Shown here in pieces: positions 5,269-24,354 of a DNA stretch of 26,864 nucleotides. Under the pieces are notes generated by a model. The model made no database searches. It worked only from the letters and a program-made list of their open reading frames with translations, and was not told where the DNA came from. The stretch spans positions 1 to 26,864 of the IMG/VR virus record IMGVR_UViG_3300009181_003535. One strand, written 5' to 3'. The number at the start of each line of letters is the position of its first letter. The first letter of the stretch is position 1. The DNA comes from a virus. The position numbers and the translations under genes were made by a program.

Positions 5269-5673
5269 GTGAAACACAAACCCGAACCATCCGATGGGGG
5301 GGACAGGGGGGATGCCGTCCGCAAAACCCGTTGGCAACGGCGCGAGCATCTGCGGACGCTTGAAGCAATTGTCTACGACGGGTGGGATGTTCCGACCGAA
5401 GCGTTCACCGCGCTGCCTTCCGACCTGATGGAAATCGCCCGCGACCCGATGCAATCGACCCGCGACCGAATCCGCGCCGCCGAGGCCCTGTCGCATCTGG
5501 TGACCTCGCGCATCGACTCCGCCGTGCAACTCGACCGCATTATGCGTTTGGACGAGGGAACCGCTACCGACCGCGTCGAATTGCTGTCAAGCCTGACCGA
5601 TGCTCAGATGTCCGCAATCTCCCTTGCCGTCGCCGCGCCTGTCCTAGCCCCGCGAAAGCGGAAGCCAACATGA
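5269..5673 (+). CDS. probable terminase small subunit
   Basis: The 134-aa product lies directly before the large terminase and overlaps it as ATGA, the usual place for TerS, which recognises phage DNA for packaging. It has a basic N-terminal stretch (VRKTRWQRREHLRTLEAIVY) and a helical middle with ARDPMQSTRDRIRAAEAL, which matches the start of many small terminase-like or DUF-type packaging proteins, followed by a helix LDRIMRLDE and a basic C-terminus APRKRKPT. The start is GTG at 5269; GGTTA-CAA-TAACC, a small inverted repeat, lies just before it and could be an operator or hide the start. The call rests mainly on position and helix content. Confidence 0.55.
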   Translation: MKHKPEPSDGGDRGDAVRKTRWQRREHLRTLEAIVYDGWDVPTEAFTALPSDLMEIARDPMQSTRDRIRAAEALSHLVTSRIDSAVQLDRIMRLDEGTATDRVELLSSLTDAQMSAISLAVAAPVLAPRKRKPT

Positions 5674-7106
5674 CACCCCTAGAGGCAGCGGAGGCGGCAC
5701 GGGCAAACCCTGCCGCGTTTCTCGCTCTTGCGCTCGGACGACCGATTTCCCCACTACAGCGGGATCTGATTTCGCACGCTTTGCAACATCATTCGTGGTA
5801 CGCCGAACTGCCTCGCGGTCACGCGAAAACCTCGACCCTGTCTTACCTCATCGCGTGGTGGCTCGGCGTGCGCCCCGAGACGCGGGTGAAGGTAGTGAGT
5901 CAGAATGACGAAGCGGCGGCAAGCACGACCCGATTCCTCCGCGACATCATCCGCAGCCCGACATTCCGAGCGGTGTTTCCTGATGTGTCTCTGAAGACAA
6001 GCGAAGACACGGTCACGGCATGGAGTGTCTCGGCGGCGGGCGTGCCTAGTCGGCGCGATGCCTCGGTGCAGGGGTCAGGCGTGTTCGGTCGCACGGGCGG
6101 CCGCGCCGACCTAATTTGGTTTGACGACATCTGCGACCTCCGAAATTCGGTGCTTCAGCCCGCCCTGCGAGCGCAGGTCAAGGAGGCGGTTGCCAACATT
6201 TGGATGCCCATGCTCGACCCGTCGTCGGCGCACACGCCGCGAGTGTGGCGAAGCGCGACCCCGTTTCATACCGACGACATCACCGCAGACTGGCGACGGC
6301 GACATGAGTCGGACGGCTCACTCTTGCGCCGCCCCTGCCTCGGCGCGAAGTCCCCGTGGAGCGAGGTATTCACGGCGGCGGTCCTAGATGAGAAAAAAGC
6401 GGAAATGGGAGCGATGGCGTACGCCCGCGCATATGAACTGATTCCGCTCTCGTCCGACCTGTTGGTGTTCCGACCCGAGTGGCTCGGCTATTACCGATCC
6501 GACGCGCTACCCATCAACACCCGCACTATCGCGGCGATTGACTGGGGGTACGGCAAACGAGCGCAGGAGCGCGAAGACCCTGATTTCTCCGTGTGCATCA
6601 TCGGCGAGATCGACGCGGAGCGACGATTGTTCCTCACCGACATCCTCCGCGTACGAGAGTCGTTCCCGACATTTGCGCGGCTCGCGGCTGATCTGCTCAG
6701 TCGGCGGTCGGTGTCGGTCGTGTGCGCCGAAGCCAACGGACCGCAAAAAGGCATTTTTGACCAGTTCGCCGCGATGACCTCACAACCCATGCTCTCCGTA
6801 GAGCGCGTGAATGACAAATACATTCGGTCCGTCGCGGCACAGCCTTTCGTGCAAGCGGGAAAACTAATGTTTCCCACAAGCGCGGACGGGCGCGTGATTT
6901 CTTCGTTTCAGCCCGTGGTCGATGAAATGCTATCATTCCCTGCGGGGTCGCATGATGATACGGTTGATGTGATTGTCGATCTCTGCGGAGAGGCGATTCG
7001 CGGCTCATTGTCGAGCGGAGACAGGCGCGTGCGCAGGTTTGAAAAGCCCGATGCAATCAGCGCGATGTTCGGCTCCTCCAAGAGCAAACGACCCTTCTTT
7101 GCCTAA
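5670..7106 (+). CDS. terL: terminase large subunit (TerL)
   Basis: This ATPase-nuclease pumps DNA into the procapsid and cuts the concatemer. The 478-aa product has Walker A RGHAKTS at 49-55, a Walker B LIWFDD at 148-153 (D152/D153), and the RNase H-like nuclease set: AIDWGYGK with D291, CAEANGPQKG with E354, and GSHDDTVD with D429/D430. These are the order and spacing expected of TerL and no key residue is missing. I chose ATG 5670, which overlaps the small-subunit stop as ATGA. The frame stays open upstream to 5382, but that part reads across the preceding gene and has no packaging motif. The 1267-aa gene starts three bases after its stop. Confidence 0.92.
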   Translation: MTPLEAAEAARANPAAFLALALGRPISPLQRDLISHALQHHSWYAELPRGHAKTSTLSYLIAWWLGVRPETRVKVVSQNDEAAASTTRFLRDIIRSPTFRAVFPDVSLKTSEDTVTAWSVSAAGVPSRRDASVQGSGVFGRTGGRADLIWFDDICDLRNSVLQPALRAQVKEAVANIWMPMLDPSSAHTPRVWRSATPFHTDDITADWRRRHESDGSLLRRPCLGAKSPWSEVFTAAVLDEKKAEMGAMAYARAYELIPLSSDLLVFRPEWLGYYRSDALPINTRTIAAIDWGYGKRAQEREDPDFSVCIIGEIDAERRLFLTDILRVRESFPTFARLAADLLSRRSVSVVCAEANGPQKGIFDQFAAMTSQPMLSVERVNDKYIRSVAAQPFVQAGKLMFPTSADGRVISSFQPVVDEMLSFPAGSHDDTVDVIVDLCGEAIRGSLSSGDRRVRRFEKPDAISAMFGSSKSKRPFFA

Positions 7107-7109
7107 CCC

Positions 7110-10100
7110 ATGTGTACGAACAAAAACAACTTCGCAGCGCGTGAAACGCAATACTACGCGGGCGATGCCTTGCTAGGAAAAACGACGGCTGACATTGTCA
7201 CCGTCTCGGCTGAAAAATACAAGACAATTTTCCCCGACGCGGTCAGCGGTTGGTCGTACGACTTCAACAAGACAACCGCACTTCGGGACGGAAAAACCTA
7301 TCGGTACGGGGTAGTCAACGGATCTGCTCGCGAAATCACGCGCATGGTTCTGTTTGCGCAGACTATCAACCCGACAAAATGCGATGCGCGCTGCCGCAAC
7401 GCTCGCGGCCCTATGTGCGACTGCTCATGCCGTGGGAACAATCATGGAAAGGGCGCAGGGTCATTCGCCCGCGCCCACAACATCTCGTTGCCATCAACGA
7501 AGCGAAAACTCAACATCGACGAGGCGACATCCGCGCTCAGTTCGATGGGGTATCGCATGGGTAATGTCCGACACTCGCTCGCGGACAAGACCTCGTACTG
7601 GTCGGTGACGACACCTACGGGTTCCGTTGTCGAGGTGGCCGCGAACAAACTGACGGACTTCGTCTACGGCAAGATCAAGAATCTGAACGCGCAGAGGTAC
7701 ACCGAGACGACCTACGAGGTGCTGTTCCCTGACGAAGATGAGGACACGCAATTTATCGACTCGAAGGAAGCCGCGATCAAGGTCGCACGCCAGTACGCCG
7801 CGAAGGGTTGCGCCGTAGAACTTTCGCAAGTCATCAAAACTTGGCGCAGCAAGGCGGAAGCCGATGCGGCTCAGATTCCCACGAACACAAAGGAAACGCC
7901 AATGCGTTTTGTCAAGAATCTGAACGCGAAGGGGACGACAATGAAGTCGATCAACAAGCGACTTTCTAGCATGGTCATCAACGAATTGAACCATGCGCTT
8001 GAAATGGCGGAAATGGACGGGGAACAAGGAATCGCTCGGGAGGTGCGAGCGGTGCTTGCTAGCCCAACCGTCGAAACTCTTAAGGCGCATCCTCTTGCGA
8101 TCAAAGAGATCAAATACAAACTTGAAATTGCTCAGGACAACGAAGAGCGAAGTCGCGTCCGAGCGTACGAAAACCTTCTTAAATCGGTGAGCAACCGAAA
8201 GGCGCAGAACATGAACAGCACAGGCGCAAGGGCGAAGTTTGGCTCCGACACGATTTCGGTCAACATGAATGCGAAAAGGTATTTGACGATCCTCAATCGC
8301 GTCAAGCCTGATGAGGGTCAGGAGCAATTTCTTGCGCGTGTTAAGGCGCGACTGCAAGAGGTTGTCAACGACACGGGAAAAATGATCCGCAACCCTGATT
8401 TGGAATCAGAATTGGGTGGTTGGCAGGGTTCCGAGTTGTCGGAAATTCTGTCCGAACTTGCAGGAAGCAGCAGCGGTTTGATTCGCACCTTGCGCCTATG
8501 GCTTGGCAATTTCTCCCGCACGGGCGCGAAGTCTCGTTTTGCAATGCTCAATAAAGCCGAAGTATTGAAGGATCATAAAGAGCGCGTAGTGTGGTTGAAG
8601 CAACACGCAGGGCAGTCAAACCAACTGCGACTGGCTGACATTTACCTTGAGGCAGGTCAAGGAGATCTAAATCAATTAGTGTCGCAAAAGCAGATGGATA
8701 AGACAGAGTGGAAAACTCTGATGCATGAATTGGAAACTGCTTACCTTCGCGTAAAGCATGGAGCAGATGCGCAAACGCATACTTCTTACTCCCGCGTCGG
8801 CGCGAAGGCAAGGTTTGATCGTCGAATTGAACTCGACAAATGGACAAGTCCAAAGGGAACGCGATACACCGCAGGATTTCATATTGAAGGTGGCGGAACC
8901 TCGTTTGCCCCGTTTGTTTCGGCGACCTACTCGGACGGCGGCGAGCAAATGATGAGTACGAGCGCGCCTTCGTTTAAGTCAGAAAAGGGCGCACGGAAAT
9001 GGCTTGCCAATTTCATGGAACGAATGTATTCGCGCACGGGGACTTTCTCCCGCGTCGGCGCAAAGTCCACGCACGCGGTCAACCCGTTTGACCTCCCCGC
9101 GAAGCCCGAGGACTGGAACGGCAAAACCATCACGCTGAACGGCAAGCAAATCAAGGTAAAGCGCACCACAGGCGCGTACAGCAGTTGGCTTGATTACGAC
9201 CTGTTCGATCTCTCTTCTGGCAAGCGAGTCAACAGCGTCGTCAAGGCTCAACTCGACGACGCTTGGAGACGAGGAAAGATCCGCGACATCTTCTCCCGCA
9301 CAGGAAAAACATCAATGGCACAATCAGATTTCAAGGTAGGTGATCAGGTCCATCTCGGATTTGCTCAAAAGGGCGGAACGGGATTTGACGGGATTATCAC
9401 GAAAATTGAGGGAGAAACGGTTTACATCAAAAGTCCCGAAGAAGGTCGATATGGCGCAAGAACTTATAAGGGATTAGTAAGTTCGCTTACGCATGGGTAC
9501 GCGGGATATCACGCAGACCAACATTCCCGCACGGGCGCGAAGTCCTTGCACGCGACGACGGATCAGGTTGCCGATCTGTTTAAAACGCTGTCCGATGTCG
9601 AGCGCGCAAGCATGAACGGTGATACCGCTAAAATGCAGACGCTGTTGAAGTCGCTTGCTCCAATGGTGGACCGTGATCGCGCCAAACTTCCAAAAGATGC
9701 GGTTGCGTATTACGACGAGATGCGCCGCAAGGCAGGTATGTCCCGAATTGGCTCAAAAGCAAACATGAACAAACTCACCAACCATCTCCAGAAGATTTCC
9801 GCATCGCTCGGTTTCAAGCCTTCATCCATCACGATGGAGGACGGCGTAGCCAAGATCAATTTCGCGCAGCGCGATGGCTCCTCGGGTCGTCTCGGCGTGA
9901 GCCTTCGCAAGCCCCTGCTCGACGCGGGCGTGACCTCGGACGCGATCACCGCGACCGCTGATCAGGTAAGCATCAACTTCTCGCAGGGCGCGAAGGCGGC
10001 GTTTGGCTCGGGCGACAGTTTTATGGTCGAGGGCTATGTCGGAAACGCGCTCACGGGGGGACGCTCCGCTCGCACGATTGAAGAAGCGGAGCATTACGCG

Positions 10101-10913
10101 AAGGCGATGCTTGCAAGCATTAAGAGTGGAAAAACAGACGGAAAGCCCGTTAAGGTTGAGATTCAAGAAATTAAGGATTACCAGCCACAAGGAGTCATCA
10201 AAACCCTTCATTCCCGCACGGGCGGCAAGGCGGCGTTCGGTCTTGGCTCGCAGAATCGCGCCTTTCTCGGCAAGGTTGACGCACGCACGCGAAGCGAAAT
10301 CCTCGCGAACATCGCTGCCCATTACGGAATCAGCGCATCCGAAGCGATGGCTGAAGTCAGTTCAGACGAGTCCGAGCATCTGCTTGAGTATGTGACTGGC
10401 GCAATGCGTTCCGCTGTGTCTATCCTCGTGCAGAAGTACGGATTCTCTCGCACAGGCGCGAAGGCGGCGTTTGCTGCCGAAATCATTCAGAAGTTGTCGG
10501 GAGGATGGGTAATCGAACGCGAGGGAGGGATTCTGTATCTCGCAAAGGGAAACGAAGCGATTCCTGTCCCTAGCGTTGAACGGGCGTTGGAACTGCACAA
10601 GTCATCTGTCGAAGGGCGATTGGCGCGGAGAACTGGTGGTTTCATGTCCCGCACGGGCGCGAAGGCGGCGTTTGCTCACGCGAATCAACAGATTGCGGAC
10701 GGCGTAGCGCAACTCCTTTCGGTGCTTGGCTTCGCGGCAATGGCAGAAGAAGCAAAGACCACGACCGACGCGGACACGCTCAAGCGCATGATCAATGTTG
10801 CCCGAAGGCGTGCCAAGGGAAGCGAACAAGCCGACCGTTTTAACACCTTGGCGGACAAACTGGAGCGGATGCTGATGTCTCGCAGCGGCGGTAAGGCGGA
10901 GAGTGGGCGATGA
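7110..10913 (+). CDS. modular repeat-linked protein, candidate polyprotein
   Basis: A 1267-aa protein of unknown function between terminase and portal. Residues 91-112 form a cysteine cluster, CX3CX7CXCXCX4H, of zinc-knuckle type. From residue 368 a short motif recurs, with consensus F/M/H/Y-S-R-T-G-A-K-A/S-x-F/H. It starts near residues 368, 468, 560, 640/646 (double), 728, 805, 877, 957, 1034, 1112, 1179 and 1256. Spacing is mostly 67-82 residues, up to 100. The segments between are unlike each other: mostly helical (468-559), beta-rich with an SH3/KOW-like VGDQVHLGF part (737-804), and helical again (1190-1255). The last motif is only a few residues from the stop. Several internal ATGs have good SD sites (7902, 7941, 8211, 9738). 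It may be a cleaved polyprotein, a packaged cargo protein or a fusion of small genes. ATG 7110 has no clear SD. Confidence 0.8.
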   Translation: MCTNKNNFAARETQYYAGDALLGKTTADIVTVSAEKYKTIFPDAVSGWSYDFNKTTALRDGKTYRYGVVNGSAREITRMVLFAQTINPTKCDARCRNARGPMCDCSCRGNNHGKGAGSFARAHNISLPSTKRKLNIDEATSALSSMGYRMGNVRHSLADKTSYWSVTTPTGSVVEVAANKLTDFVYGKIKNLNAQRYTETTYEVLFPDEDEDTQFIDSKEAAIKVARQYAAKGCAVELSQVIKTWRSKAEADAAQIPTNTKETPMRFVKNLNAKGTTMKSINKRLSSMVINELNHALEMAEMDGEQGIAREVRAVLASPTVETLKAHPLAIKEIKYKLEIAQDNEERSRVRAYENLLKSVSNRKAQNMNSTGARAKFGSDTISVNMNAKRYLTILNRVKPDEGQEQFLARVKARLQEVVNDTGKMIRNPDLESELGGWQGSELSEILSELAGSSSGLIRTLRLWLGNFSRTGAKSRFAMLNKAEVLKDHKERVVWLKQHAGQSNQLRLADIYLEAGQGDLNQLVSQKQMDKTEWKTLMHELETAYLRVKHGADAQTHTSYSRVGAKARFDRRIELDKWTSPKGTRYTAGFHIEGGGTSFAPFVSATYSDGGEQMMSTSAPSFKSEKGARKWLANFMERMYSRTGTFSRVGAKSTHAVNPFDLPAKPEDWNGKTITLNGKQIKVKRTTGAYSSWLDYDLFDLSSGKRVNSVVKAQLDDAWRRGKIRDIFSRTGKTSMAQSDFKVGDQVHLGFAQKGGTGFDGIITKIEGETVYIKSPEEGRYGARTYKGLVSSLTHGYAGYHADQHSRTGAKSLHATTDQVADLFKTLSDVERASMNGDTAKMQTLLKSLAPMVDRDRAKLPKDAVAYYDEMRRKAGMSRIGSKANMNKLTNHLQKISASLGFKPSSITMEDGVAKINFAQRDGSSGRLGVSLRKPLLDAGVTSDAITATADQVSINFSQGAKAAFGSGDSFMVEGYVGNALTGGRSARTIEEAEHYAKAMLASIKSGKTDGKPVKVEIQEIKDYQPQGVIKTLHSRTGGKAAFGLGSQNRAFLGKVDARTRSEILANIAAHYGISASEAMAEVSSDESEHLLEYVTGAMRSAVSILVQKYGFSRTGAKAAFAAEIIQKLSGGWVIEREGGILYLAKGNEAIPVPSVERALELHKSSVEGRLARRTGGFMSRTGAKAAFAHANQQIADGVAQLLSVLGFAAMAEEAKTTTDADTLKRMINVARRRAKGSEQADRFNTLADKLERMLMSRSGGKAESGR
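8208..10913 (+). repeat. dispersed coding repeat, about 12 copies (SRTGAK motif)
   Basis: DNA copies of the linker start near 8211, 8511, 8787, 9027/9045, 9291, 9522, 9738, 9978, 10209, 10443, 10644 and 10875. The best copies share TCCCGCACGGGCGCGAAG or differ by one to three bases, and the last four full copies continue with GCGGCGTT. Similarity at the DNA level is higher than the protein motif needs, so the copies are either recent or kept alike by recombination. Confidence 0.85.
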
Positions 10914-11096: not shown

Positions 11097-12599
11097 ATGG
11101 CAGATCCCACGCCGTACTCCAACCCAACGCAGAACGGGCTAACTCCCGAGAAGCGACCGCGCAAGCCTTTACCTGCGCCAGTCGAGCGCGGTCCGACTAC
11201 GCCGCTTGGGTCTGCCATTGAATTGCAGCGTTCGTTCTTCACGACCGCCGACAAACTGCTCCGCAACTCGTCGCTCGCGTATCGCTTGAACCCGCAGTAT
11301 CAGCAGATGATGCGAGCGGACGCGGATATTGAAGGAGTGCTTCGCTCGCTTCAGGTCACGCTCGCTTCGCTTGAATGGTCAATCGTTTCGAGCGATCCGA
11401 ACAACGCAAAGTCGGTTGAACTTGCGGAGAAGATCTCCAAGATCTTCGCTTCGATGCCTCGTCGGTCTGACTTCGTTCGCTCGATGCATGAGGCGGTGTG
11501 GTACGGCAGCGCGGCAACGAACCTTGTGTACGCGAAGGACAAGAGACTCGGCGTGAAGATCACCGAGTGGTATCCATTCCACCCCGACACGCTTGCGTAC
11601 GATCAACGCGGCAACCTCGCAATGCGCGTCGGCGCGGCGTACTCGGCTTCAGGCGCGAGCGAGCAGAACATCGGATTCGACTCTCGCGTCCACATTTTTG
11701 ACGAGAAGGAAAGACGCGCAATCGTCCTCCATCGCGTGTTCATCTCGCCGCCTGATTTCAACGACGCGAACTCGACCGAAGCGATTTATCGTGGCATCGG
11801 CTCCCGTGATGTCTGTTGGTTCATGTGGTTGGCGAAGCAGGAAATATTGCAGGACGCGATCACCTACGCAGAGCGTTACGCAATGGGCATCCGCGTCGGC
11901 TACTACCCGCTCGGGCAGGATGCAGGGCGCACGATGATGGAGAATGTTCTTGCGAACCTGACGAACGACAACAGCGTGCTGTTGCCGATGTCGGGGACCG
12001 AGAAGATCTACGACATCGACATCAAGGAGCCGAACGCGGGGCGCGCTCAGGTGTTCATGGAACTCGTCAACTGGTTCAGCGGCAAGATCAAAGAATCAAT
12101 CATCGGTCAGTCGCTCAGTAGCGAGGCGGGCGGAACGGGCATGGGGTCGGGCGTTGCCAACCTCCACGCCGACACGCTCTCGCGCATCATCCGCTACCAC
12201 GCCGACGCGCTCGCCGACAGTATGTCGTTCGAGTTTGTCCGCGTCGTTGCTGCGATGCTCGGCGCGTCTCCCGAGGATGCGGACTGCCTTGAATTTCAGT
12301 TTGCTCCCGAGCGTCCCGATCCAAAGGAACGCCTCGAAGCCATCGAAAAGTTCGTGGCGATGGGCGGGCGCGTTTCGCAAGCCGAGGTGCGCGATCTGCT
12401 CGGTCTGTCCGAGCCGACCGAGGACGAGCCGATTCTCGGAGTGTCCACCGCCACACCGACCGACAACGGCAACGGCGCGAAATTGGACGAGTCGTCCTAC
12501 GGCAACGGCGCGAAATTGGACAGCGACCCAACACCTCCAGAGGGTGAGCAGCCCCGAGCGGGCGCGCCCAAGGAATTCTCCCGACGCTCATGGTGGTAG
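11097..12599 (+). CDS. portal protein, DUF935 / Mu gp29-like
   Basis: The portal forms the dodecameric ring at the head vertex through which DNA passes. The 500-aa protein has the DUF935 pattern: MRADADIEGVLRSLQVTLAS near residues 71-90, LEWSIVSSD just after, AVWYGSAATNLVY near 133-145, WYPFHPDTLAYD, and FVAMGGRVSQAEVRDLLGL at about 420-440. The C-terminal tail (445-500) is low complexity and holds GNGAKLD twice (458-464 and 469-475). ATG 11097 lacks a strong SD. It is followed by the MuF gene with a 10-base overlap, the normal portal-MuF order. Confidence 0.85.
   Translation: MADPTPYSNPTQNGLTPEKRPRKPLPAPVERGPTTPLGSAIELQRSFFTTADKLLRNSSLAYRLNPQYQQMMRADADIEGVLRSLQVTLASLEWSIVSSDPNNAKSVELAEKISKIFASMPRRSDFVRSMHEAVWYGSAATNLVYAKDKRLGVKITEWYPFHPDTLAYDQRGNLAMRVGAAYSASGASEQNIGFDSRVHIFDEKERRAIVLHRVFISPPDFNDANSTEAIYRGIGSRDVCWFMWLAKQEILQDAITYAERYAMGIRVGYYPLGQDAGRTMMENVLANLTNDNSVLLPMSGTEKIYDIDIKEPNAGRAQVFMELVNWFSGKIKESIIGQSLSSEAGGTGMGSGVANLHADTLSRIIRYHADALADSMSFEFVRVVAAMLGASPEDADCLEFQFAPERPDPKERLEAIEKFVAMGGRVSQAEVRDLLGLSEPTEDEPILGVSTATPTDNGNGAKLDESSYGNGAKLDSDPTPPEGEQPRAGAPKEFSRRSWW
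12468..12521 (+). repeat. 21-bp direct repeat in the portal gene
   Basis: Two identical 21-base copies at 12468-12488 and 12501-12521, start to start 33 bases apart, each encode GNGAKLD. They lie in the unstructured C-terminal tail of the portal and look like a slippage duplication. Confidence 0.85.
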
Positions 12600-13702
12600 A
12601 CGACACGATTCCGCTCGGCGAAGTGTCGGTATTCCGACCGCTGAAGGCAGCGGCGGAGGTCGCGTACCGTCGCGCCATCGCCGCGCAGGTCGAGGGCAGG
12701 AGCGCGGAGAGCGCGTGGGACGAGTGGGAAGACGCGACCGCCGCGCTGCTACTGATCTCATGGGCAGACGGCGCGGAGACAAGCGTTGCGGCGGCGGGGA
12801 TAGATTCCGCCGAGGTCGCAGACATTCCCGTTGCTCGGTTCGCCGCGATTGAAATACCCGTATCCCTCAGATTCCGCGTCGGACCCTCGCGCCGAGCGGT
12901 CGAGCGATACACGCAGTTGCTTCCCATTACTCGCCAAAAATGGGAAGAACTCGTCGCCTACGCCTTCGCTTCAGCGCATGAGATGCGCGAGGACGAGGCA
13001 GGGAACGCCCTACAGGCGATCATGGATCGGAGTCCCCAACTAGCGGCTCTTATCCGAGGACAGCCACAGCGCGACCCTAGCGCGCCCGTGACACCTGTCG
13101 ATGTGATTCGCGACCCTGCGGTTCAGGCGGTTGTCCAAGGGACATTCTTCGTCACTTCGATGAGCCAGACGCAAATCGAGCAGACCAAAGACCTGCTTGC
13201 AAAAACCATTCGCGGCGACATTACGATGTCGGTTGCAGGGAAACGGCTTGAGCGTCTAGGGGTCGGCGATTTCGTGGAGCAAGCGATTCTGGAGACGGGG
13301 ACAGACCTGACCGCCGCTCGGCTTGAAACGATATACAGAACCAACCTCAATCGCGCTCAGACTCAAGGGCGGCTCGACATCTGCCGCGACAAGACCGTGC
13401 AAGCGTTTGTTCCGTTGATGTCGTTCAGCGCGACAAAGGACAAGAGAACCCGAGAAACGCATAAGCAAATGGACGGCTATGTCGCCACCGTTGAGCAGAT
13501 TGACAGGATGGGAATCCCCGCCCCGCTCGGATTCAATTGCCGATGCGCTTGGGTTCCGATGAGCATCGCCAAGGCAGTCAGCCGAGGATTCTGCGACGAA
13601 GACGGAAATCTCGACCTTGACGCAATTGCCAAACATAATGGAAAGCGACAGGAATTGATTGATAAACGATTGGTTCCCGATGCGGGATTTATTTCAGGAT
13701 GA
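12590..13702 (+). CDS. MuF-like head morphogenesis protein
   Basis: The 370-aa protein carries the MuF domain (Phage_Mu_F) at about residues 242-325: ARLETIYRTNLNRAQTQGRL, then MSFSATKDKRTRETHKQMDG, and GFNCRCAWVP with C317 and C319. MuF proteins are minor head components linked to the portal and procapsid assembly, sometimes fused to toxins. Here the C-terminus after the domain is only about 45 residues, so no toxin module is attached. The N-terminal 220 residues are helical. The ATG at 12590 lies within the portal end; SD is weak. The stop overlaps the protease start as ATGA. Confidence 0.88.
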   Translation: MVVDDTIPLGEVSVFRPLKAAAEVAYRRAIAAQVEGRSAESAWDEWEDATAALLLISWADGAETSVAAAGIDSAEVADIPVARFAAIEIPVSLRFRVGPSRRAVERYTQLLPITRQKWEELVAYAFASAHEMREDEAGNALQAIMDRSPQLAALIRGQPQRDPSAPVTPVDVIRDPAVQAVVQGTFFVTSMSQTQIEQTKDLLAKTIRGDITMSVAGKRLERLGVGDFVEQAILETGTDLTAARLETIYRTNLNRAQTQGRLDICRDKTVQAFVPLMSFSATKDKRTRETHKQMDGYVATVEQIDRMGIPAPLGFNCRCAWVPMSIAKAVSRGFCDEDGNLDLDAIAKHNGKRQELIDKRLVPDAGFISG

Positions 13703-15414: not shown

Positions 15415-16458
15415 ATGGCATTTTCTGTTGTCGGTGGCGGTCAATCCGCTTACATCCCAAGCACGAACGATCTCGCGACTGGCGCGCTGCAAGTGGAGTT
15501 CACTCGCAGCGTCAATCAGTTCGCGCTCACTCGTTACGCGCAACTCGTCCCCACTTCGAAGATGTCGGGTTACTACCTCCGACACGATGTCTCCGACAAT
15601 ATGCGTATTGTCAACGACAAGGAGTTCCTTTGGAACCTCGGAACTGATCGTCCTACGGGCAAGCAGAACGCATTTGATTTCATTGCGTACAACACGCAGC
15701 GATACGCATTTCCGTTCTACATCCCGCAGGAAACGGCTGCTCAGGCTGCATGGGACACCGTCGCGCAACACGCTCGCAGCAAGGCGCAACTTGCGATGAC
15801 TCGTCGCACGATGGGCGCAGCAACCGCTTTGGCTACGACCGCGAATTGGGGGCAGAATTTCATTGCTAATCCGAATACAACCGCGCAAGGTTTTACGGCG
15901 GTAGGCGGAGTCTGGACTTCTAGCACCACAGGGGGTGCATACATTCAGAAGTCGATTCAGCAGGTCATGCAACTCGTCGGCTTCTCAAGCGGCGGTGCGG
16001 TCAACCCATCGCAGTTGATCATGGTCATTTCGCCGAAGGTCGCTCAAGCCATCGCGCAGTCTGCTGAGGTCAAGGATTATGTCAAGGCAAACCCGCAGTC
16101 GCCAAACTTCCTGATGGGCAACGACATTTATTCGCGTTGGGGAATTCCGTCTACCCTGTTCGGACTTGGCGAGGTCGTCATTGACGACACCGTCAAGATG
16201 ACGAGCCGCAAGAACGCGACCGATGCCACCTCGTATGTCCTCGGCGACGGCGCGTATTTTGTGTCGCGTCCTGGGGGTCTTGTGGGTGTCGAGGGCTCCA
16301 ACTCGTTCGCTACCGTTCAGATTTTTGCTTACGAGGACATGACCGTCGAGCAGTTCAACGATCCTCTCAATCGTCGCGTCGAAGGTCGCGTGATTGACAA
16401 CAGCGTTGCAGCAATCGTTGCGCCTGTTTCGGGCTACTCGATCACCTCTGTCCTCTGA
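15415..16458 (+). CDS. major capsid protein
   Basis: The 347-aa product is placed directly after decoration and scaffold genes and has HK97-type capsid features: an N-terminal arm, a long helix (ETAAQAAWDTVAQHARSKAQ with LAMTRRTMGAATAL, residues about 105-138), NPSQLIMVISPKVAQAIAQS in the A-domain, and a C-terminal domain with a conserved Y-E-D-M-T-V-E-Q-F near 303-311. No protease delta domain is visible; the N-terminus is short, so scaffold comes from the separate gene. AGGAG lies eight bases before the ATG, and an intrinsic terminator follows, both typical of a very highly expressed gene. Confidence 0.85.
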   Translation: MAFSVVGGGQSAYIPSTNDLATGALQVEFTRSVNQFALTRYAQLVPTSKMSGYYLRHDVSDNMRIVNDKEFLWNLGTDRPTGKQNAFDFIAYNTQRYAFPFYIPQETAAQAAWDTVAQHARSKAQLAMTRRTMGAATALATTANWGQNFIANPNTTAQGFTAVGGVWTSSTTGGAYIQKSIQQVMQLVGFSSGGAVNPSQLIMVISPKVAQAIAQSAEVKDYVKANPQSPNFLMGNDIYSRWGIPSTLFGLGEVVIDDTVKMTSRKNATDATSYVLGDGAYFVSRPGGLVGVEGSNSFATVQIFAYEDMTVEQFNDPLNRRVEGRVIDNSVAAIVAPVSGYSITSVL

Positions 16459-22033: not shown

Positions 22034-24354
22034 TTGAAGCATGGTTCCAAAGTTACGCCGAAGAGGGTGTAAAACATCCAGTCATTCTGCCGACTCCCGA
22101 GATCATCGAGTGGGCTGCGGTACTCGGCATGACCGTCAACGATTTGTTTGAGGTTCATATACCCACGGGATTCTCGCGGGTGGGAACGGTCAAATGTCTT
22201 GTGAGCAACGAGACAATGAGACTGCTGTATCCGCCGATTCCCAACCCTGATAATCCCGCAGACGGGCGACTGTTCAAGTTTTTTTGGCGCGACAACGCTG
22301 ATCCAACTCAGCAAGCCAACCCTAGCGAAATTTTTAGCATGACGGTTGCATTGCTTCCGCCTCGACCGCTGTTTGCTCGCGCATCACTTGTGTCTCCCGC
22401 GCAACCCGAAGGGTTATACCCGCCCGCGTTGTTTCTGATTACGGGTGAGGATGATCGCAGAGTAATGCGCGGAGCGCAGGTAAGTAACAGCATCTATTCT
22501 GCTTTGTTTACGGGTGGGCAAGATCAAACCATCAACATCACCAACACAACGCAGCGCGTAAAGCGGGATAGTTTATACGACGGCGAATACAAATTTTCCG
22601 AGATTGAAGCGTGGTTTCAGCGGTCGTATTCTTCAGATGGAAAGATGCCGCCGCCAACTCTTCCCGACTCAGATGTCGATACTTTGTTGACCGCAATGAT
22701 CGAGGGTGCTTGCCCTGCGGGCGGTCATTATTTCAATTATGTTGATATGCAATCGTGGGAGGATTGGCTATACGCGAATTCGCGTTTTCGCGACATGACT
22801 GCGGGTGCTGCAAGTCCGTTGCTTACAAATGCGGCGTGGGCAAAAAACAAGGCGTGTCTCAATTGGAACAATCAACCAGTTGGCATGGCTTGTGATTTGC
22901 TCGCATCAAATTGCGGAGGCTTGCTTGTACCGAAACTGAAATCGAGCATCTTTCTAAACACCTATAAGGTTGTTCAGATTCAAAACGGGTATCAGTCAAT
23001 TAATGCAGAAATGGTTTCAAGTCAACGCGCTATGGCGGGCGGTGTAGAAACGATTCGCGAGCAAGTTTATTCAACGGGGCAACTGACCGATCCGCTGTTT
23101 CTTTTCTGGCAGCGTTTTGGTGCGCCGACTGTCGCTCTTGTGTATTCGTACTGCTATCACAGGGTAGGGCAGTTTTACTCGTTCTCGTTTCCCATGCGAG
23201 GACCAGAGCAGAATCAAGCAACTAACAATGTAAGCGCGGTTGAGCAATTTACTCCGTCCGTTTGGGGATTCGGCAAGGCGTTAGAAAACCCAAATCGCTT
23301 AGACATTTTGAGGGAATTGAACTTTTCTTACCCTGTAAACGGGTCGTCTGATTTTTACGCAAACAATAATTTTGATGCCTCTGGACAAAAAAAGGGCGAC
23401 TACTCAATACCTCGTCAAGTTTTTGAGCCTCGCACAATCGCGCTTCACGAATTTGAATTCAATTCAGTTCAACTAAACTGGACGGGGCTTTCCCCGTCAG
23501 GGTCAAACAACCAAGTTCAGGCGTGGGATTTTTGGGGCTACTCAAATTGGTGCAGAGATCAAATTAGCACCCGCAACTCATTGCCATTCAACAAAACGGT
23601 GTGGGCAGGATGGGGCGGGAATTGGGACACGAACTACATGATTCGTAGTTCTTACATCCGATTCCATCTCGCAGTCATCAAGGATCAGATTGTTCCTATC
23701 TGCACTACGGAATGCGACTACGACGACTGGGTGTTGGGACCAAACGGCGAAACAGAAACAGCATCAAATCCCAAAGACATGGTGTTCTCAAACGGGAATG
23801 TCCATGCGCGCCGCGTGTTAAGCGGTGCGCTTGTCATTGATGTTCCTCCGCCAACAACACGGACATTCGCTGCTCAGATCGTTAGCGCAACGCGCATCGC
23901 TCCGTCTGGTGACTTTTACTGGCGTTGGCGTTATGAGTGGACGGAAGTCGATCCGCCTACTCCCGCTGACACCATCGCGAATCAGGTCAACAACTGGGTG
24001 AAGCAGCGCGGGACAAATCGAACGCGAGGTCGATCATCCGAAAAACCTTGGACTCGCGACCCAAGCACAATCAAAAACTACGCTTTCAATCTTGCCGAGA
24101 ACGGAAACCATTTTGTTGGCGCGGGCAACGCGGGTAATACTATCGCGACGGGTGTTCTTCAGAGCGATTACACCACCTCAACAATCGACGCGCTACCCAT
24201 CAGCGTCGGTACGATTGTCGCTATGCACGAAAATGCAATGACAATGTACAGCAAGACAAACCTCGTTCCGACAAACTCAACGATGCGTGACTCCCCGCTG
24301 AACTGCGTCTTTTGGTTTTCGATTCCGAACTCGGTCAAAGTCACCTGCATCTAG
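22030..24354 (+). CDS. tail tip / baseplate protein, unknown subtype (774 aa)
   Basis: A 774-aa protein of unknown family, overlapping the previous gene by four bases. It is rich in aromatic and Asn/Ser residues (e.g. WFQRSYSSDGKMPPPTLP, VWAGWGGNWDTNYMIRSSYI), contains W-D-F-W-G-Y-S-N-W and several cysteines (C-T-T-E-C-D-Y near residues 558-564). Such composition is common in host-contact proteins of tail tips. No catalytic motif of a peptidoglycan hydrolase was seen. A-T content looks higher than in the head genes, which is frequent in receptor-contact genes taken from other phages. Confidence 0.45.
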   Translation: MIEAWFQSYAEEGVKHPVILPTPEIIEWAAVLGMTVNDLFEVHIPTGFSRVGTVKCLVSNETMRLLYPPIPNPDNPADGRLFKFFWRDNADPTQQANPSEIFSMTVALLPPRPLFARASLVSPAQPEGLYPPALFLITGEDDRRVMRGAQVSNSIYSALFTGGQDQTINITNTTQRVKRDSLYDGEYKFSEIEAWFQRSYSSDGKMPPPTLPDSDVDTLLTAMIEGACPAGGHYFNYVDMQSWEDWLYANSRFRDMTAGAASPLLTNAAWAKNKACLNWNNQPVGMACDLLASNCGGLLVPKLKSSIFLNTYKVVQIQNGYQSINAEMVSSQRAMAGGVETIREQVYSTGQLTDPLFLFWQRFGAPTVALVYSYCYHRVGQFYSFSFPMRGPEQNQATNNVSAVEQFTPSVWGFGKALENPNRLDILRELNFSYPVNGSSDFYANNNFDASGQKKGDYSIPRQVFEPRTIALHEFEFNSVQLNWTGLSPSGSNNQVQAWDFWGYSNWCRDQISTRNSLPFNKTVWAGWGGNWDTNYMIRSSYIRFHLAVIKDQIVPICTTECDYDDWVLGPNGETETASNPKDMVFSNGNVHARRVLSGALVIDVPPPTTRTFAAQIVSATRIAPSGDFYWRWRYEWTEVDPPTPADTIANQVNNWVKQRGTNRTRGRSSEKPWTRDPSTIKNYAFNLAENGNHFVGAGNAGNTIATGVLQSDYTTSTIDALPISVGTIVAMHENAMTMYSKTNLVPTNSTMRDSPLNCVFWFSIPNSVKVTCI

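Follow-up and report, generated by a model that had tools for sequence, protein, structure and literature searches.

The DNA analysed here (the window) is a 26,864-nucleotide, 26.9-kilobase (kb) fragment of an uncultured virus (IMG/VR record IMGVR_UViG_3300009181_003535) that encodes, at positions 7110-10913, a 1267-residue protein termed the chain protein. It is formed by an N-terminal domain followed by about 11 unlike modules strung on a short SRxGAK-type linker. Among related phages the modules are shuffled, exchanged DNA segments tend to end at the linkers, and the linker itself is conserved as DNA. We consider it fairly probable that phages recombine in frame at the linker, which would act as a joint, and that the prohead is loaded with the chain as a cargo protein. 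The initial annotation had proposed a processed polyprotein or a string of packaged cargo domains; it missed the shuffling of the modules and the DNA-level joint at the exchange boundaries.

A recurring linker between unlike segments

The chain protein of the window contains 12-13 copies of the motif [F/M/H/Y]SRxGAK[A/S]x[F/H/M][A/G], located between unlike segments of ~70 residues. The copies start at residues 368, 468, 560, 640/646 (a doublet), 728, 805, 877, 956, 1034, 1112, 1179 and 1256, confirming the recurrence noticed at first, and are spaced by 67-100 residues. Two of them are degenerate (368, NSTGARAKF; 956, FSQGAKAAF), and the last copy ends the protein. A weight matrix derived from the relatives identifies nine strong copies (score of at least 8) in this chain, whereas 500 shuffles of it averaged 0.012 copies and never exceeded 1; several linkers, e.g. 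linker 5 of the window, escape the matrix. In a six-frame scan of the window, the sole motif match outside the chain protein is a weak one at position 22174. The segments do differ from each other, as had been claimed: no module family holds two internal modules of the window. A simple single-fold repeat protein was considered and rejected, as only the linker repeats and the segments do not share sequence.

A scan with the whole protein revealed two diverged relatives, L003 and L004 (chains are numbered with an L), which harbor the same modules in another order. Profiling the cysteine-rich head identified further relatives, and a search with the motif written as a degenerate DNA pattern yielded 97 stretches. 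After removal of near duplicates, 78 chain proteins with at least two linkers were retained, originating from 66 viral loci on contigs that are metagenomic fragments. Cut at their linkers, these chains comprise 2-11 segments each. Their linker consensus is [F/A/S/M]-S-R-P-G-A-K-A-[K/A/R/T]-[F/M]-[A/G], in which the residue after SR tends to be uniform within a chain, being T in the window phage and P, A or S elsewhere (within-chain identity of 0.756 vs 0.548 in shuffles, maximum 0.612). The chain-bearing lineage is broad, since the identity of its terminase large subunits (TerL) to that of the window spans about 42-74%.

Shuffling of modules and exchange at linkers

Cutting the 78 chains produced 446 pieces, the internal ones having a median length of 70 residues, which assemble into 84 families of two or more members and 121 singletons; these counts vary with the cutting and clustering thresholds. 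Families were defined by two-sided coverage, single linkage having fused unrelated families via uncut multi-domain pieces. The position and the neighbors of the inner families change nearly every time, with nearly as many different neighbors as members: the 15 members of family 2 have 14 left and 14 right neighbors, and the 12 members of family 4 have 11 and 12, respectively. Fixed positions are observed only for families 3, 5 and 12, which are shared chain heads, and for the tail family 1. There are 185 distinct adjacent module pairs, only 14 of which occur in more than one chain, and window modules 1 and 3-11 have relatives at other positions in other chains.

At the nucleotide level, 423 between-chain matches of at least 80% were found. 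Of their 583 internal ends, 48% are located within a linker in both chains, as compared to 10% for one random position. Left ends coincide with the linker start and right ends with the linker end, indicating that the moved unit is linker-module-linker. Cassettes of 250 base pairs (bp) show 98.8-99.6% identity between contigs with a backbone identity of 70-72% (L043/L095, L110/L057, L110/L067 and L110/L086), and arrays differ between contigs that are 97-99% identical in their backbones (L013/L014 and L092/L102).

Conservation of the linker as DNA

Within the ~33-bp linker coding for [F/M]SRPGAKAx[F/M][A/G], about 21 bp (TCCCGCCCCGGCGCGAAGGCG, or a variant of it) form the core. The codons TCC CGC CCC GGC GCG AAG GCG are used well beyond the general codon usage, proline being CCC in 94% of the cases vs 25% elsewhere. 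Third positions were assessed on 275 linkers lying outside the search pattern, in order to avoid pattern bias: their consensus reaches 0.77-0.95 over codons 1-6 and 0.59 at codon 7, and information drops to background just beyond the linker. In the same phages, the codons of two conserved protease peptides are mostly mixed. When up to three mismatches are allowed, 357 of the 358 matches of the repeat are in frame within chains.

An RNA or translation signal, i.e. a hairpin in the RNA or an internal element for ribosome binding or pausing, is a highly improbable explanation of this conservation. It would account for the GAAGG found 5-9 nucleotides ahead of the F/M codon and for the ATG present there in 100 of 347 strong linkers; however, the Shine-Dalgarno-like sequence is no rarer before F than before M (0.90 vs 0.83), and 60-nucleotide windows at linkers are not more structured than expected (z of 0.06 vs -0.19 in controls). 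Internal translation starts and a hairpin were rejected on these two grounds, respectively.

Candidate recombination machinery

Seventeen contigs were scanned for annealases (those of L007, L009, L010, L011, L015, L018, L045, L047, L050, L052, L061, L067, L089, L092, L095, L103 and L110). ERF is encoded in 12 of them and RecT in four, never both; 16 of the 17 thus possess one, the L089 contig having neither. Phage Rad52-like recombinases are described to act on short, diverged sequences during phage infection (PMC3945230), and annealases of this kind would be suitable candidates for recombination through the linkers.

An exchange driven by a site-specific recombinase or a homing nuclease targeting the linker, in the manner of integrons, would be in keeping with the sharp conservation of the linker DNA and its restriction to chain genes. 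Against it, none of the 17 contigs, which are incomplete, encodes a tyrosine integrase (PF00589) or a resolvase above the cut-off, HNH_3 is found in just one of them, and the linker variants between phages (T, P, A, S) exceed what a strict recombinase site tolerates; we regard this explanation as improbable.

To note, the N-terminal profile and the motif DNA pattern detected no chain in a set of about 85,000 genomes of bacteria and archaea, which, together with the lack of tyrosine integrase in the 17 contigs, fits lytic phages. The capsid protein and protease of the window have no match among 50,697 phage records.

Modules as separate domains

AlphaFold was run on residues 956-1267 with a small alignment. 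Module 8 is modelled as a confident ββ-α-ββ fold (per-residue confidence, pLDDT, of 82-92) and module 11 as a confident helical domain (about 90), while the linkers of the same region have low confidence and the predicted template-modelling score (pTM) is low (0.31). Modules 9 and 10, for which little or no alignment was available, did not yield a resolved fold. The modules are thus predicted to be separate domains on flexible joints. The view of the initial annotation that the units are separate small folds, and not one continuous repeat fold, is borne out here: two of the four modelled modules fold confidently on their own, one of them ββ-α-ββ and the other all-α, and some modules are complete free-standing genes elsewhere. 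A fold search of the modelled modules against the PDB returned no match at E ≤ 0.001.

The window chain has no match in Pfam and matches PHROGs by its cysteine-rich head only. Among 79 module representatives, only a few match PHROGs; in Pfam, one or two resemble KOW domains, one KOW-type representative matching Pfam KOW. The free-standing genes, 68-100 residues long, belong to other phages and to plasmids. Module 9 is homologous to a 70-residue plasmid gene and to an open reading frame (ORF) of a Variovorax phage. The KEYVLWG module of other chains is gp88 (68 residues) of Rhodobacter phage RcPeripeteia, and phrog_9437, which matches a module over its full length, corresponds to a small gene of Agrobacterium phage Milano located amid small genes annotated without function. 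On pPME5, the free-standing homologue of module 9 adjoins a HipA-type toxin gene (Pseudomonas plasmids, hits H2-H7). Linker position 9 is F or M in 144 and 76 of 245 cases, respectively, and lies near the start of the free-standing homologues; judging from these sequences, the modules may have been captured together with their start codons.

Link to the prohead

Where structural genes are visible, the chains lie in the head operon of a single phage lineage, arranged as TerL - chain A - portal - MuF - chain B - protease-scaffold - p144 - capsid protein, chains occupying one or both of two sites, TerL-portal and MuF-protease-scaffold. In the window, the chain ORF starts four bases past the terminase gene end, and downstream of it lie a Mu-type portal, MuF, a 408-residue protein, a 144-residue protein and the capsid protein; the initial annotation had correctly placed the chain between terminase and portal, and had noted a prohead protease gene nearby. 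The 408-residue protein displays conserved blocks (VVMHE..G.EPKS.VGR, FPRRSAEI and LSEVALLGRETPRRPLPDT) and its model matches capsid maturation and prohead proteases in a viral library, the protease model having no match in the PDB. Behind the protease part, a disordered acidic stretch is followed by a coiled coil.

A domain named WGG (GLELREKHGRGGTAVGVARARDIKN..WGGDAG) heads many chains or comes right after their head. About 18 contigs, belonging to a different part of the lineage, have it fused to the N-terminus of the protease-scaffold. Of the 26 contigs that contain TerL, portal, MuF and protease, 10 have WGG at the TerL-portal site, 3 have it at the protease, none at both and 13 at neither. 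The WGG of Limnohabitans phage DC31 is fused to a protein whose sequence we read as that of an XkdF-like protease; WGG also begins the annotated capsid protein of Roseobacter phage CRP-406, which we read as a protease-capsid fusion. Furthermore, one protease-scaffold (L006:8170-9680) carries, just after the FPASRP site, an inserted module of chain family 40 (43% identity, E of 4e-13). The sharing of WGG and this insertion place chain parts in the prohead environment, short of proving packaging. Together with the head-operon position, they lend indirect support to the virion or prohead role proposed at first, of which the cargo idea is plausible.

The same three observations, as well as a very low cysteine content and a net positive charge, would suit an uncut, structural or scaffold-like filler or core of the prohead, a beads-on-a-string for which compact domains suffice and shuffling is neutral. 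However, the modules are conserved across distant phages and occur as free genes among small non-structural genes, which suggests individual functions, and a neutral filler ought to decay. We hold such a filler to be unlikely.

The processed polyprotein, in which the motif is chiefly a prohead protease site and the packaged chain is cut into single ~70-residue proteins, has several pieces of evidence in its favor: the protease-scaffold gene lies three genes downstream; linker-like sites flank the parts of the protease-scaffold, FARKGAPVTFS after the protease domain and ASRPGKADTFA before the coiled coil; nine of 47 protease-scaffold homologues score at least 5 for such sites, and none do among the homologues of 12 other virion genes; linker residues 9-10 are kept as protein; and the F/M of the linker is near the start of the free-standing homologues. 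Conversely, the second site is lost in half of the lineage while the chains there retain SRPGAKA, and it is not the same DNA repeat as the linker; the first site may be the last strand of the protease fold; and the capsid protein has no such site. Processing alone would also leave the synonymous conservation of the linker and the exchange boundaries unaccounted for. Altogether, we view the processed polyprotein as a rather doubtful explanation, if less so than the filler. The sites at the protease-scaffold boundaries hint at a recognition sequence shared with the chain linkers, which is similarly doubtful, and the likeness of the motifs was rejected as proof of a cleavage site, being too weak.

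Proposed mechanism

In the favored reading, a recombination joint in a packaged protein, the same in-frame sequence would flank every single-domain cassette of about 70 codons, and single-strand annealing by ERF or RecT would swap, add or delete cassettes at the linkers while keeping the frame. The outcome would be a multi-domain protein that changes fast while its head and, in many chains, its tail stay fixed, and that is produced late, along with the head proteins. The product would probably be loaded into the prohead, and the host would receive a mix of small effector or anti-defence domains, as with T4 internal proteins and polyvalent proteins. A wider formulation, in which interchangeable domains, a selected joint, a phage annealase and a shared pool of 200+ orphan domains act as one cassette system that rebuilds an injected effector, is proposed tentatively, and we would not put it ahead of its negation.

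Several points weigh against this reading. The packaging and delivery of the chain product are steps that we infer, and an effector role of the modules is a guess, most of them matching no known family. The window chain is devoid of the WGG domain, as is the window protease, and neither ERF nor RecT was found in the window, an incomplete 26.9-kb fragment. Linkers of the same chain resemble each other only slightly more than linkers of different chains do (0.846 vs 0.805). Finally, linker positions 9-10 (F/M, A/G) are kept as amino acids with largely free third positions, which reveals a peptide-level constraint beside the DNA one: the linker thus has a DNA layer, the joint, and a peptide layer.

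Comparison with known systems

Each ingredient of the chain system has a precedent. In integrons, each cassette is a gene of its own that IntI moves at attC, with conserved repeats as flanks. Chains also have exchangeable cassettes and a conserved flanking repeat, but their cassettes are in-frame parts of a protein, and no integrase was found in the 17 contigs. In the gp38 adhesin of T-even phages, conserved intragenic motifs reportedly serve as recombination points for swapping variable segments. The exchange breakpoints of chains fall likewise in a conserved motif (48% of 583 ends vs 10%); however, gp38 exchanges short loops of one fold at the tail-fibre tip, whereas chains exchange whole unrelated domains of a head-operon protein. 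The swapping of gp38 segments is credited to Tetart et al. 1998, cited in PMC12529663.

Domain shuffling between phages is described as ongoing by Smug et al. 2023 (PMC10684548), who highlight tail, lysis and replication proteins in a text that does not mention a linker; chains share this shuffling and differ by their linker and their head-operon place. Polyvalent proteins (Iyer et al. 2017, PMC5512222) are large phage proteins of 2-15 disparate domains, encoded near virion genes and proposed to be co-delivered with the DNA. Chains resemble them in being located near virion or late genes; their 2-11 segments are unlike and may have disparate activities. Polyvalent proteins, however, mainly contain known enzymatic and nucleic-acid domains and a zincin protease, whereas chains possess tiny orphan domains and a uniform, DNA-conserved linker. 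Neither the window chain nor the 79 representatives has a Pfam match to polyvalent domains (zincin-like MPTase, MTase-helicase, ART, ParB), and no HExxH is present in the 78 chains.

The T4 internal proteins IPI-IPIII are small and highly diverse and have one short sequence in common; they are packed into the core of the prohead and injected, and IPI*, 76 residues long, blocks a restriction enzyme (PMC3012670). Small diverse domains with one shared short sequence are also found in chains. T4 internal proteins are nevertheless separate genes with a targeting sequence and a proteolytic maturation, whereas chains are encoded in one ORF, the shared sequence stands between the domains and targeting is putative, the chain heads of families 3, 5 and 12 and the WGG domain in common with prohead proteases being possible counterparts of the targeting sequence. 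Within a literature coverage that is incomplete, we found no known system with a uniform, DNA-conserved, in-frame joint between unrelated head-operon domains.

Features of the window

The coordinates of the chain gene, its parts and its neighbors are collected in Table 1. The cysteine cluster of the head, C..CRxARGPxCDCxCxGxxHG (L019-L029; window 7380-7450), is also present in unrelated small phage proteins and, by its sequence, looks like an undescribed metal-binding motif. There is no cysteine in the window chain after residue 234, and cysteine amounts to 0.24% in internal modules vs 0.89% in the other virion proteins of the window. A second p144-like gene copy, of scaffold or decoration type, is located between chain and portal in two loci (L050:3846-4136 and L075:9777-10046). 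On the minus strand of the window, positions 125-1191 harbor QueE-like and QueD-like genes (phrog_2076, phrog_2389), with which the phage would probably produce a 7-deazaguanine precursor, perhaps used for DNA modification.

Table 1. Chain gene of the window, its linkers and modules, and the neighboring head genes
Feature	Position	Strand	Remarks
Terminase large subunit (TerL)	5382..7106	+	Directly 5' of chain gene
Chain protein, 1267 residues	7110..10913	+	ATG start; N-terminal domain and about 11 modules on SRxGAK linkers
N-terminal domain, C3-4C..CxCxC..HG cysteine cluster	7110..7457	+	Heads chains of close relatives, fixed; phrog_6842
Region from N-terminal domain to first linker	7458..8210	+	Part (FARAHNISLPSTKRKLNIDEA..) recurs in chains L078, L096
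Linker 1, degenerate, NSTGARAKFG	8211..8243	+	
Linker 2, FSRTGAKSRFA	8511..8543	+	
Linker 3, YSRVGAKARFD	8787..8819	+	
Linker 4, doublet YSRTGTFSRVGAKSTHA	9027..9077	+	Doublet SRTGTFSR with same module also in L018
Linker 5, FSRTGKTSMAQ	9291..9323	+	
Module 5	9324..9521	+	Akin to KOW/SH3-like modules of other chains (L011 70%, L037, L050)
Linker 6, HSRTGAKSLHA	9522..9554	+	
Linker 7, MSRIGSKANMN	9738..9770	+	
Linker 8, degenerate, FSQGAKAAFG	9975..10007	+	
Module 8 (family 9)	10008..10208	+	Modelled ββ-α-ββ fold; relatives in 7 other chains, different positions
Linker 9, HSRTGGKAAFG	10209..10241	+	
Module 9 (family 27)	10242..10442	+	Homologues are free-standing ~70-residue genes: Variovorax phage V45v66, Pseudomonas plasmid pPME5
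Linker 10, FSRTGAKAAFA	10443..10475	+	
Linker 11, MSRTGAKAAFA	10644..10676	+	
Module 11 (family 25)	10677..10874	+	Modelled helical bundle; relatives in L007, L009, L011, L089
Linker 12, terminal, MSRSGGKAESG	10875..10907	+	
Mu-type portal protein	11097..12599	+	Directly 3' of chain gene
MuF-like head protein	12590..13702	+	
Probable prohead protease fused to scaffold coiled coil, 408 residues	13699..14925	+	
Major capsid protein	15415..16458	+	No linker-like site

Significance

If the proposed reading is true, the chain would be a natural plug-and-play protein, in which a standard in-frame joint lets phages trade whole domains. Two questions would become testable, namely how mosaic proteins can be assembled by phages and stay intact, and how multi-domain cargo gets into phage heads; the flexible linker with its DNA rule could guide the design of modular fusion proteins. 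With 84 shared families and 121 singletons, the chains would also represent a compact collection of small phage domains that can be screened singly, and these domains may target host or defence proteins.

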